The notes under the pieces: generated by a model
The model's input: the letters and a program-made list of their open reading frames with translations, nothing else
Told to the model about the DNA's origin: nothing
Databases searched by the model: none
Part shown: one piece after another, positions 1,435-4,082 of the stretch
Numbering within the stretch: position 1 is the stretch's first letter
Layout of the letters: each line of letters starts with the position of its first letter
Assembly (NCBI RefSeq): GCF_030406725.1
Contig: NZ_CP129107.1
Location: 1,178,001 to 1,242,000, forward strand
Reading direction: 5' to 3'
From: Alteriqipengyuania flavescens
GTDB lineage: Bacteria; Pseudomonadota; Alphaproteobacteria; Sphingomonadales; Sphingomonadaceae
DNA length: 64,000 nucleotides
Made by a program: the position numbers and the translations under genes

Positions 1435-3186
1435 ATGCACGGCGGCGAACATTCGATATTACTCGCAGTCCTGACGCTGCTCGGCTTCGGCCTCATCTTC
1501 GTGTTGATCTTCCGCAAGCTGGGGCTGGGCGCGACGCTCGGCTACCTCGTGGCCGGCGCGATCGTCGGGCCGCAAGTGCTGAACCTTGCCGGCAATGCGG
1601 AAGTCACGCTGACCTTTGCCGAGATCGGCATCATCCTGCTCCTCTTCATCGTGGGGCTGGAGCTCAACCCGGCGCGGCTGTGGCGGATGCGCAAGGCGAT
1701 TTTCGGCGTCGGACTGGCGCAGGTCGCGCTGTGCGGCCTCGCGCTGACCGGGCTGATCCTGCTGGTGACGGGCTATCCGTGGACCGCCGCGCTCGCGCTC
1801 GGCCTGCCGCTCGCCCTGTCCTCCACCGCGCAGGTGCTGCCGATGCTGCAATCGGGCGGCCGCCTCAACACCCCGCTGGGCGAGCGTGCCTTTTCGATCC
1901 TGCTGTTCCAGGACCTGTCGATCATCGCGCTGATCACCATCATCGCCGCGCTCAGCGTGGCGCCGGGCGCCGAGGAAGGCCTGCCCGGATGGCAGCTGGC
2001 CCTGATGAGCATCGCCGCCACCATCGGCCTTGTGCTCGCCGGGCGGTTCCTCCTGCGCCCGCTGTTCGCGCTGATCGGCCGGCTGGGCGAGCGCGAGATG
2101 TTCATCGTCGCCGGGCTGACAGTGGTGATCGGTGCCGCCGCGCTGATGGAGGCGCTGGGGCTGTCCGCGGCGCTCGGCGCATTCATCGCCGGGGTGATGC
2201 TGTCCGACACGCCTTACCGGCACGAACTGGAAGCCGATATCGAGCCGTTCCGCTCGATCCTGCTCGGCCTGTTCTTCCTGTCGGTCGGCATGATGCTGGA
2301 CCTGGGCGCGATTGCCGAGAACCCCGGCTTCGTGGCCGGCATGGCGCTGGCGCTGATCTCGGTGAAGGCGGCGATCATCTTCGGCCTCGGCAAGCTGCTC
2401 GGCATGGACTGGCGCGGCGCGCTCGCGCTCGGACTGCTGCTGAGCCAGGGCGGCGAATTCGGCTTCGTCATGTTTACGCAGGCGCAGGCCGGCGGCTTGA
2501 TCGATGCCGAGATCGCCAGCCTGTTCGGCGCGATCGTGACCCTGTCGATGGCGACTACGCCGTTCCTGATGATGCTGAACGACCGCATCCGCAAGCGGGA
2601 CGAGGAGCGGGAACGCGACGCGCCGGACGGCGGCGGTGCCCATGCGCTGGTCATCGGCTTCGGCCGCTTCGGCCAGACGGTGGCGGAGATGCTGGTGACC
2701 GCAGAGGTGCCGGTCACGCTGATCGACCGCAAGGTGGACCAGATCGACCTCGCCGGCGAATTCGGCGCAAAAGTGTGGTTCGGCGACGGGACGCGCATCG
2801 ACCTGCTGCGGCAGGCCGGGGCGGACGAGGCGAAGCTGCTGGTCTTCTGCATCGACGGCGACCAGGTGACGCCCGAACTCGTCGCCGCGGTGAGGGGCGC
2901 CTTTCCGCAGGCCGCGATCATGGTGCGCGCCTTCGACCGCCGCACGCTGATGGCGCTGGCCGGGTCGGAAGTCGACCACGTCCAGCGCGAGGTGCTGGAA
3001 TCCGCCATCCGCATGGGCCGCAAGGCGCTCGCCCGGATGGGCTTGAAGAGCGCGGGTATCGACGATACCGAGGCCGCCTTCCGCCACCGCGACCGCGACC
3101 GGCTGGAACGCCAGATCGACGCGGACGACATCATGGCCGGACGGGACGGATTCTACGCCGACCAGATGGGCCCTGCCACGAACTAG
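1435..3186 (+). CDS. Monovalent cation:proton antiporter (CPA2, Kef type) with RCK domain
   Basis: The protein has 583 residues. The first ~385 form about twelve hydrophobic helices of the Na+/H+ exchanger fold, with Kef-type segments such as LSSTAQVLPMLQ and FQDLSIIALITI. Around residue 403 a cytoplasmic RCK_N/TrkA-N domain starts with the dinucleotide-binding motif GFGRFGQTVAEM. This is the build of KefB/KefC potassium-efflux systems, which are gated by glutathione conjugates in enterobacteria. The ligand here is unknown and no KefF/KefG partner is adjacent. The ATG at 1435 follows GGGGGAGG, a good ribosome site. Confidence 0.88.
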   Translation: MHGGEHSILLAVLTLLGFGLIFVLIFRKLGLGATLGYLVAGAIVGPQVLNLAGNAEVTLTFAEIGIILLLFIVGLELNPARLWRMRKAIFGVGLAQVALCGLALTGLILLVTGYPWTAALALGLPLALSSTAQVLPMLQSGGRLNTPLGERAFSILLFQDLSIIALITIIAALSVAPGAEEGLPGWQLALMSIAATIGLVLAGRFLLRPLFALIGRLGEREMFIVAGLTVVIGAAALMEALGLSAALGAFIAGVMLSDTPYRHELEADIEPFRSILLGLFFLSVGMMLDLGAIAENPGFVAGMALALISVKAAIIFGLGKLLGMDWRGALALGLLLSQGGEFGFVMFTQAQAGGLIDAEIASLFGAIVTLSMATTPFLMMLNDRIRKRDEERERDAPDGGGAHALVIGFGRFGQTVAEMLVTAEVPVTLIDRKVDQIDLAGEFGAKVWFGDGTRIDLLRQAGADEAKLLVFCIDGDQVTPELVAAVRGAFPQAAIMVRAFDRRTLMALAGSEVDHVQREVLESAIRMGRKALARMGLKSAGIDDTEAAFRHRDRDRLERQIDADDIMAGRDGFYADQMGPATN

Positions 3187-3223
3187 GTGCGTGGGGGCGC
3201 TCCTCGCGCCAATCACCCCCGCC

Positions 3224-3512
3224 CAGCCTGAGCCTGTCGAAGGCCACGCGCGGCCCCATTCACGCGTCCCTTGGCACCCGGCCCCGCTCAGCCTGAGCTT
3301 GTCGAAGGTCACGCGCTGGGGCTAGCCACACGTATCCTAGCACCTACCGCCGCTCAGCCTGAGCTTGTCGAAGGCCACGCGCGGCCCCATTCACGTGTCC
3401 CTTGGCACCCACACCCGCTCAGCCTGAGCTTGTCGAAGGTCACGCGCGGTCCCATTCACACGTCCCTTGGCACCCACACCCGCTCAGCCTGAGCTTGTCG
3501 AAGGCCATGCGC
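3224..3512. repeat. Tandem array of a 65-66 bp unit with a palindromic core
   Basis: Five direct copies of CAGCCTGAGCTTGTCGAAGG (one with GAGCCTG) start at 3224, 3289, 3355, 3420 and 3485, a strict period of 65-66 bp. The left end of copies 2-5, with its flank, forms the palindrome GCTCAG-C-CTGAGC; copy 1 has CCCAG there. Sequence between copies is also related (blocks such as CACGCGCGGCCCCATTCAC and CCCTTGGCACCC recur), so the whole unit is amplified. Two more copies lie in opposite orientation past the GIY-YIG gene. Together with that array, this fills the gap between the antiporter and the GIY-YIG gene; I see no gene here. Confidence 0.9.
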
Positions 3513-3517
3513 TGGGG

Positions 3518-3811
3518 CTAGCCACATGAGCCTTGCCTGTTACGTCCAAGAGCCGAAATCCGCTCCCAGTCCCCTGCTATCAACGCCTCTTTCTTTGCCC
3601 TGCTCCAGCCCTTGATCTGCCGCTCGGCTGCAAATGCCTCGTCCCGCGTCGGGAACCTGTCAGACCATACAAGTGTGACCGGCATCCGCTTCGCAGTGTA
3701 GCCGCCGAGTTCGCCGGTCTGATGCTCCGCAATCCGCCTATCGAGATCGTCGGTATGACCGGCATAGTAGCTCCCGTCGTTGCAACGGAGCAGGTAGGTG
3801 TAGAAGTCCAT
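3518..3811 (-). CDS. GIY-YIG nuclease family protein (UPF0213/YhbQ-like)
   Basis: A 97-residue single-domain GIY-YIG protein. The first strand is YTYLLRC (residues 4-10) and the second is YYAGH (15-19). The conserved Arg is at 25 in DLDRRIAEH and the catalytic Glu is in the helix AAERQIKGW (about residue 63). The length is normal for the small YhbQ/UPF0213 group, whose cellular role is poorly known. The gene sits alone between five direct repeats on one side and two inverted copies on the other, which may tie the nuclease to the repeats. Family confident, role unknown. Confidence 0.9.
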   Translation of the reverse strand: MDFYTYLLRCNDGSYYAGHTDDLDRRIAEHQTGELGGYTAKRMPVTLVWSDRFPTRDEAFAAERQIKGWSRAKKEALIAGDWERISALGRNRQGSCG

Positions 3812-3830
3812 GCCGGGGGGCTAACCCCGG

Positions 3831-3925
3831 CGCGTGGCCTTCGACAAGCTCAGGCTGAGCGGGTGGGGTTCCAAAGTGCGGATGTTTGGGGCCGCGCATG
3901 GCCTTCGACAGGCTCAGGCTGAGCG
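3831..3925. repeat. Two inverted copies of the dispersed repeat
   Basis: GGCCTTCGACAAGCTCAGGC (near 3836) and GGCCTTCGACAGGCTCAGGC (near 3899) are reverse complements of the array units at 3224-3512. They are spaced about 63 bp apart, so the same unit spacing is kept. Each is followed by TGAGCGGG. With the array on the other side they bracket the GIY-YIG gene in inverted orientation. Confidence 0.88.
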
Positions 3926-3965: not shown

Positions 3966-3999
3966 GCAAAAGGGGCGGCACCTTGCGGCACCGCCCCTT
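3966..3999 (-). terminator. Intrinsic terminator of rplJ-rplL
   Basis: Read on the minus strand, a perfect 13-bp stem (AAGGGGCGGTGCC pairing with GGTGCCGCCCCTT) closes a four-base GCAA loop and runs straight into TTTTGC. It lies about 84 bp past the rplL stop codon. Confidence 0.92.
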
Positions 4000-4082
4000 C
4001 GTGTATCAGAGAGATCGAAGCCCGGCTGATCGAGATCCCCGCTTTCGCGAGGATAACGGCGGGGACATGCGTCCCCTGTCCG

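Follow-up and report, generated by a model that had tools for sequence, protein, structure and literature searches.

A small GIY-YIG nuclease gene bracketed by inverted hairpin repeats as a candidate compact mobile element

Described hairpin repeat systems and the locus in the window

Short hairpin repeats are common in bacteria, and to our knowledge their source outside the RAYT system is mostly unknown. In the REP/REPIN system, which comes with a RAYT (TnpA-REP) enzyme, short hairpin repeats are present in many copies, as singles and as inverted doublets, and the nuclease gene is flanked by its own repeats. The Ssn family is said to comprise GIY-YIG superfamily nucleases that act site-specifically and on single-stranded DNA alone, whereby the Ssn of Neisseria, with the NTS repeat, reportedly cuts single-stranded DNA at this repeat, which occurs in hundreds of copies, and Ssn homologs elsewhere reportedly have their own cognate sequences. 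One report describes REP palindromes of which one end is tagged by the tetranucleotide GTAG or CGTC (PMC3733652), and another describes Rickettsia palindromic elements as in-frame insertions in protein genes (PMC10969869). A literature search over titles and the starts of abstracts, with few subscription papers covered, yielded none on GIY-YIG genes with bacterial hairpin repeats.

The window, i.e., the whole 64-kb stretch of DNA that was analysed, contains seven copies of the repeat CTTCGACA(A/G)GCTCAG, five on the minus strand and two on the plus strand, which flank a small GIY-YIG gene. The preliminary description of this DNA had noted five direct units with a period of 65–66 bp and two inverted units around a nuclease gene, and this arrangement was confirmed by the seven exact copies, the minus-strand repeats following each other in steps of 65, 66, 65, and 65 bp. 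The GIY-YIG (UPF0213-type) nuclease gene (3518..3811, minus strand), which was identified as an open reading frame and by Pfam PF01541, encodes 97 aa and starts with an ATG at 3811. Read along the gene, two repeats are followed by the gene and then by five inverted repeats. On the side of the start codon, the second repeat core was located by exact-match search at 3903..3917 (plus strand), and the hairpin repeat core adjoining the start codon lies at 3839..3853 (plus strand), with the end of its loop 28 nt from the ATG. The leader, which extends from this hairpin to the start codon (3812..3838, minus strand), belongs to the proposed mobile unit and recurs in a decayed second copy described below. 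The repeat core adjoining the stop codon (3489..3503, minus strand) is inverted relative to the upstream core, as in a terminal inverted repeat, and is followed by tandem repeat units at 3424..3438, 3359..3373, and 3293..3307 and by an outermost unit at 3228..3242 (all on the minus strand), which adjoins the end of the neighbouring antiporter gene. The entire cluster of repeats and gene (3220..3925) lies between this antiporter gene (1435-3186), which is of the cation/proton type and has a TrkA-N domain, and rplL, the gene for ribosomal protein L7/L12 (4083-4460, minus strand), whereby both neighbours were named by Pfam. On the minus strand downstream of rplL (3974-4081), there is a match to the Caulobacter sRNA CC3552 with 28.2 bits, the gathering score being 50. 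A search with a 16-base version of the repeat, allowing up to two mismatches, gave seven matches, all of them at the cluster and none anywhere else in the 64-kb window, where 0.05 matches per 64 kb were expected by chance.

The 97-aa protein matches the Pfam GIY-YIG model PF01541 with 61.4 bits (E 1e-16; curated cut-off 22.6), and no NCBIfam model matched it at E 0.1. Its only two PDB matches, 1zg2 (E 5e-18) and 1ywl, are both UPF0213 proteins of the same sequence family and length, which are named hypothetical in the PDB. In an alignment of 20 proteins (the own protein and 19 relatives), Y16, G18, R26, H30, and E63 are invariant and Y6 is nearly so. Y16, R26, E63, and Y6 presumably correspond to the GIY-YIG active-site residues, which we take to be two Tyr, an Arg, and a Glu. 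The genome to which the window belongs (2,719,067 bp, one contig) contains 43 exact copies of CTTCGACARGCTCAG, compared to 0 copies of the reversed control in the whole genome. Seven of the 43 copies are located at most 300 bp from the GIY-YIG gene of the window, and several copies are paired in inverted orientation, 30–61 bp apart.

Linkage of the hairpin to the nuclease gene

For the analysis of related loci, the best 80 of at least 539 protein matches in genome contigs were used as relatives. The exact loop was present at most 250 bp from the gene in 68 of these best 80, and the repeat density was 2.46 per kb within 250 bp compared to 0.028 per kb at more than 1 kb from the gene, which is a ratio of 88. 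Enrichment of the repeats beside the gene had been set beforehand as a test and was thus borne out; of the two contrary outcomes named in the preliminary description, an even spread of the repeats and relatives lacking them, neither was found. The arrangement is also oriented: upstream of the gene, the closest repeat within 250 bp had the R orientation in 52 of the best 80 relatives and the F orientation in 7, and downstream of the gene the closest one within 250 bp had the F orientation in 56 and the R orientation in 5; an R just upstream together with an inverted F just downstream was present in 38. In 42 of the 52 relatives with an upstream R within 200 nt, the R loop ends 26–30 nt from the start of the protein match, and a start codon is present there in 40 of these 42; the 28-nt distance between hairpin and ATG in the window equals this common spacing. 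Moreover, in 37 of 43 loci the hairpins on the two sides of one gene agree in their 3-bp stem, where 11 were expected by chance and 23 was the maximum in 5000 shuffles, which ignore kinship. An exact repeat within 250 bp was absent in 12 of the best 80 relatives, which include nine fused genes (see below) and L042, where two repeat copies are present with one base changed in each. Betaproteobacteria are among the best 80 relatives, as are two Myxococcota, three Chloroflexota, and one Thermodesulfobacteriota. Several of the relatives are metagenome bins, so that a transfer of the gene family from one phylum to another is likely rather than certain. In the Sphingomonas loci L068, L077, L080, L082, and L103, the GIY-YIG gene is situated directly upstream of another gene, which by motif presumably resembles era. 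A further relative, which bears the annotation GIY-YIG nuclease family protein (NZ_CP155752.1, 295828-296148), overlaps an RNA methyltransferase gene on a 395-kb plasmid of Sphingomonas parapaucimobilis.

The conserved feature of the repeats is a hairpin, which consists of the loop TGAGC(C/T)TGTCGAA and a variable stem that nearly always pairs. The stem was analysed in 206 repeats from the window and the 80 related loci, which were picked by the exact loop TGAGCYTGTCGAA. Stem pairs 1–3 were of Watson-Crick type in 202, 196, and 193 of the 206 repeats, compared to 174, 106, and 69 with shuffled partners. Twelve distinct 3-bp stems occurred in this set, and the 3-bp stem around the loop was intact in 184 of the 206 repeats, including 49 of the 52 upstream ones. 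The palindrome GCTCAG-C-CTGAGC (GCTCAGCCTGAGC), which had been put forward as the core of the repeat, is present in the window copies, yet it occurs in only 43 of the 206 repeats and in 16 of the 52 upstream ones, and it was given up as the functional core, the other hairpin being the conserved one. Covariation was assessed in an alignment of 53 sequences (49 distinct) from copies adjoining gene starts, in which the foot of the repeat reads CCG(C/T)TC. The covariation score was 0.490 compared to 0.113 (sd 0.021) after shuffling, with none of 500 shuffles as high. Since kinship among sequences inflates covariation scores, it matters that the score fell to at most 0.146 when the partner was slid by 1–3 columns. 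Two further covariation measures were within the range of the shuffles (482 of 500 as high for two-sided-change pairs, 75 of 500 for additional pair types), and single hairpins did not exceed shuffles in stability (z 0.66 to -0.70). A constant loop on a variable stem is the mark that would be expected from the recognition of a single-stranded hairpin, and the stem covariation would fit selection for single-strand folding.

The repeats could also be transcription terminators or mRNA stabilisers, which have built up by chance beside small genes. We consider this highly improbable: although the repeats are hairpins and intergenic in the window, their tight spacing to the gene start, the 88-fold clustering at one gene family, the insertion within a coding sequence (see below), and the variation of the stem while the loop stays fixed all argue against such a role. 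An RNA-family search for a terminator or RNA element returned two matches, both far under the gathering score.

In order to relate the gene to the repeats across genomes, 196 Sphingomonadales genomes were surveyed, whereby a protein match with an E value of at most 1e-20 was counted as a close relative. The 38 genomes with the gene had a median of 27.5 repeats, with at least three repeats in 34 and fewer than three in 4 of them, whereas the median was 0 in the 158 genomes in which a close relative was absent, 30 of which had at least three repeats. Gene presence was associated with the repeat number (p 6e-18), and this association was reached in 0 of 20,000 within-genus permutations. The genome-wide count of repeats, which the preliminary description had proposed, came out in agreement with its suggestion, and the partnership between gene and repeats holds as an association among genomes. 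It is not a strict one, as shown by the four gene-bearing genomes with fewer than three repeats and by 20 of the 158 genomes without a close relative, which hold at least ten repeats (maxima 145 in G097, 83 in G118, and 69 in G130). Thus, the repeats are retained, or multiply, in genomes that have no close relative of the gene. These 20 genomes would also be compatible with a scenario in which a RAYT/Y1 or another enzyme moves the hairpins and the GIY-YIG gene is a passenger between two of them, as would the presence of Y1 transposases (PF01797) in 38 of the 196 genomes, G130 included. However, no Y1 transposase match was obtained in the window's genome at E 0.001, and over the 196 genomes Y1 presence was not linked to the repeat number, as Y1 transposases occurred in 11 of the 48 genomes that hold ten or more repeats and in 27 of the 148 others (p 0.53). 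RAYT was rejected as the mobiliser on these two grounds, and we regard the passenger scenario as a whole as quite unlikely. The initial suggestion that a GIY-YIG enzyme and its own repeats form a system apart from RAYT gains from the 88-fold linkage and from the missing connection between Y1 and repeat number, while the action of the nuclease on the hairpin is something that we infer from the sequences.

The window's genome has six GIY-YIG matches, two of which, besides the window gene, are bracketed by their own inverted hairpins with arms of 30–35 nt and 86–90% complementarity; the remaining three have shorter or poorer inverted pairs only. One of the two further genes (1400311-1400532) has TGAACTTGTTTCA hairpins (L003 1388-1794, corresponding to about 1400199-1400605 of G000:C1), and the other, the third GIY-YIG gene (803539-803760), has CGGACWTGTTCCG hairpins (L004 1362-1824, about 803400-803862 of G000:C1). 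The five genome copies of TGAACTTGTTTCA comprise two at the gene, a doublet whose members lie 62 bp apart (2570326-2570400), and one single, and the six copies of CGGACWTGTTCCG comprise three at the gene, one 1.7 kb off, and one doublet 58 bp apart (1146464-1146534). Backward-read controls of both motifs had 0 copies in the genome. As the motifs were derived from the hairpin arms, the copies at the genes are present by construction, and the independent evidence consists of the doublets away from the genes. The three loops TGAGCYTGTCGAA, TGAACTTGTTTCA, and CGGACWTGTTCCG have a common CNTGT centre, which is most often CTTGT. One hairpin type per nuclease gene is thereby supported at the sequence level for three genes of this genome, which would be hard to square with a gene that is just a passenger.

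Unit copies, empty sites, gene-less doublets, and gene fusions

A decayed second copy of the unit was detected in the window's genome (G000:C1:1690577-1690856), consisting of an R hairpin, a 28-nt leader, a degenerate GIY-YIG ORF, and an F hairpin. Its GIY-YIG frame has a large internal deletion and stops, and is recognised by tblastn with 54.7 bits compared to 22.3 bits for the best of 60 shuffles. The outer flanks of the window unit and of the decayed copy gave no blastn match to each other at E 0.01. Among the repeat copies scattered over this genome, 3 of 23 are leader-like (above the 99th percentile); these few and the decayed copy do no more than hint that such copies derive from the gene unit.

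Further indications for mobility came from G079, which has 111 repeats, whereas, of the 18 other genomes sampled from this genus, 15 have none and 3 have a single one. The G079 gene is surrounded by seven exact repeats. Both flanks are kept in 15 of the 17 congener loci examined, and none of these 15 has an exact repeat or a GIY-YIG match in the stretch compared. The best-matching congener locus has 97 bp compared to 1199 bp in G079; in the other 14 loci the left match stops earlier, and 284–513 bp are opposed to 1366–1417 bp in G079. The gene and repeats of G079 thus look like an insertion in this alignment. The flanks of the empty sites, both here and at the G130 doublet site described below, are too diverged for a target-site duplication to be defined. 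In the protein tree, which comprises 94 columns and has many unresolved forks, the G079 protein falls together with three proteins of Thiobacillus and with one from a proteobacterial bin (support 99/83), and a transfer of the gene between classes appears likely. The rplL comparison covered 30 loci, namely the own locus (L117) and those of 29 relatives. None of the 29 relatives' loci had an exact repeat in the stretch compared, and the antiporter neighbour was found only in L122, where 949 bp of different sequence separate the parts that match. An empty-site search with the flanks of the relatives' loci led to 37 matches listed after filtering, which lie in diverged DNA; the clearest flank difference, between the Thiobacillus loci L099 and L109, resembles a deletion taking the start codon rather than an insertion. 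Overall, the gene with its hairpins behaves as a putative mobile element.

Dispersed R..F doublets are present in both G118, which has no protein match at E 0.001, and G130, which has distant protein matches only (best 2e-11). In G118 there are 26 pairs less than 120 bp apart, 14 of these at a spacing of 59–60. For the analysis, 20 pairs were taken from each of the two genomes, of which 39 R..F doublets were used and the F..R pair L247 was omitted. Doublets scored singly against the gene ends gave almost no signal, with 4/20, 0/20, 1/19, and 1/19 above the 99th percentile of shuffles. The pooled doublet profile is a second look at the same data, made after this single-doublet scoring. When the pooled left interiors were compared to 47 gene leaders, L104, L097, and L105 were on top (14.3, 13.8, and 13.4; median -19), and when the pooled right interiors were compared to 56 gene 3' ends, L105 and L104 were on top (15.8 and 14.2; median -17), with L097 having no 3' end in range. 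The proteins of L104, L097, and L105 form one clade (support 100/91). Since both pooled ends fit best to one protein clade, the doublets together would retain both ends of one GIY-YIG unit. The pooled doublets of G118 and G130 therefore look like MITE-like derivatives of one kind of GIY-YIG unit, which keep both ends and have lost the middle. That gene-less doublets, when pooled, match both ends of gene-bearing units also argues against the gene being a passenger on hairpins moved by another enzyme.

One of the G130 doublets adds 99 bp at a site where nothing is present in 23 of the 27 comparable congener loci (29 loci compared in all). The host gene stays open with a 452-aa ORF, in which the insert is in frame. 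Pfam analysis of a 199-aa part of the host protein gave a match to GATase (50 bits) and a match to the end of CPSase_sm_chain (24.5 bits, just below the cut-off of 27), and the 33-codon insert falls between these two matches, after which the host gene is tentatively named carA-like. Three other congeners have a hairpin insert at the same site (+105, +144, and, in decayed form, +81 bp). An unrelated palindromic repeat (GTCATCCCAGCG...; +63 bp) occurs at this site in L276 of G237. All five insert lengths at the carA-like site are multiples of three, and this site between two domains is a possible insertion hot spot.

In 24 of the best 80 of at least 539 relatives, the GIY-YIG frame continues without a stop into a second domain, all of these frames being longer than 200 aa, and in several cases the fusion runs through the translated downstream repeat. 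The fusions were read as open frames, and an open frame alone is no proof of a fused protein. By sequence likeness, the partners in the 24 fusions are a SpoU-type methyltransferase (17), JAB (4), a pseudouridine synthase (2), and a MeaB-type protein (1), and Pfam on 10 of the 24 identified a SpoU-type methyltransferase (4), Prok-JAB (3), a pseudouridine synthase with S4 (2), and MeaB (1). At L066, L084, L098, L112, and other fused loci, in which the GIY-YIG frame is fused to the SpoU-type methyltransferase, longer nested hairpins are situated about 20–80 nt upstream of the gene, with an outer CTGAG...TCGAAG and, in place of the middle, a second stem whose loop is identical or similar. Because nine of the 12 relatives without an exact repeat are among the fused genes, the GIY-YIG domain may have been domesticated in part of the family. 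Such domestication would suit an Ssn-type host nuclease, which cuts incoming or exposed single-stranded DNA at the repeats and thereby tunes transformation and recombination, with the repeats kept as marks or protection of genomic regions and mobility as a by-product. Neisseria Ssn with its repeat reportedly offers a precedent for this. As the primary role of the window system we regard it as unlikely, since the patchy presence, the 15 empty congener sites, the likely transfer between classes, the dispersed deletion derivatives, and the in-frame insertion in the carA-like gene look selfish. The two roles are not exclusive, as a host nuclease of this kind is compatible with the mobile element preferred here.

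Proposed mechanism and comparison with known systems

We consider it probable that the locus in the window is a compact mobile element, present here as a tandem-expanded copy, whose nuclease would cut the hairpin loop and which would be re-inserted by host repair. The unit would consist of a hairpin, a leader of about 28 nt, the GIY-YIG nuclease gene, and an inverted hairpin. In this model the nuclease would bind the conserved hairpin loop in single-stranded DNA and cut there, with the replication fork or transformation as candidate single-strand settings. The freed or nicked strand with its hairpin ends could then be re-inserted elsewhere through host repair or annealing, and such re-insertion would multiply units and doublets. 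GIY-YIG enzymes hydrolyse DNA and we know of none that rejoins it, so that host functions would have to complete the insertion. Whether this extends to a widespread class of bacterial transposons, with a GIY-YIG nuclease as the sole protein and an own loop in each lineage, which would spread themselves, doublets, and in-frame inserts via single-stranded DNA without HUH or DDE enzymes, is in our view evenly balanced.

If the model is true, a single small protein family would lie behind the repeats of Sphingomonadales, of Thiobacillus, of some Chloroflexota, and of other groups, and the model would account for the in-frame insert in an enzyme gene and for several gene fusions via a translated hairpin. 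It would also provide a defined loop for recognition assays, as well as a source of candidate specific single-strand cutters with known target loops.

The Ssn family would be the nearest precedent, as it reportedly likewise combines a small stand-alone GIY-YIG protein with a multi-copy genomic repeat. A gene-linked cognate repeat in many copies, as in Ssn, was found here, with 43 copies in the genome and the linkage in relatives. The window system differs from Ssn, as the latter is reportedly characterised, in that the evidence here concerns a mobile unit with inverted hairpins at its ends, its deletion derivatives, sites that are empty in relatives, and insertions within coding sequence. With REP/REPIN and RAYT it shares the dispersed hairpin singles and doublets and a nuclease gene flanked by its own repeats. 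However, the nuclease has a GIY-YIG instead of an HUH/Y1 fold and resides in a genome without a Y1 transposase, and the pooled gene-less doublets of two genomes retain both ends of the gene unit. A conserved tetranucleotide of the GTAG/CGTC type was absent from the 53 aligned repeats, a comparison that concerns tagged REPs and leaves untagged ones aside. Like the MITEs of bacterial insertion sequences, the G118 and G130 doublets appear as non-autonomous internal-deletion derivatives that keep the ends of their parent; terminal inverted repeats with a deleted interior were seen in the pooled doublets in comparison to L104, L105, and L097, and not doublet by doublet. In contrast to these MITEs, the parent unit here has a GIY-YIG nuclease gene as its only gene. 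The G130 insert resembles the Rickettsia palindromic elements in being a palindrome that lies in frame within a protein gene, and differs from them in that a candidate mobilising gene is available here. Set beside these systems, the gene with its hairpins and the gene-less miniatures may point to a little-studied, enzyme-driven mobile element of bacteria.
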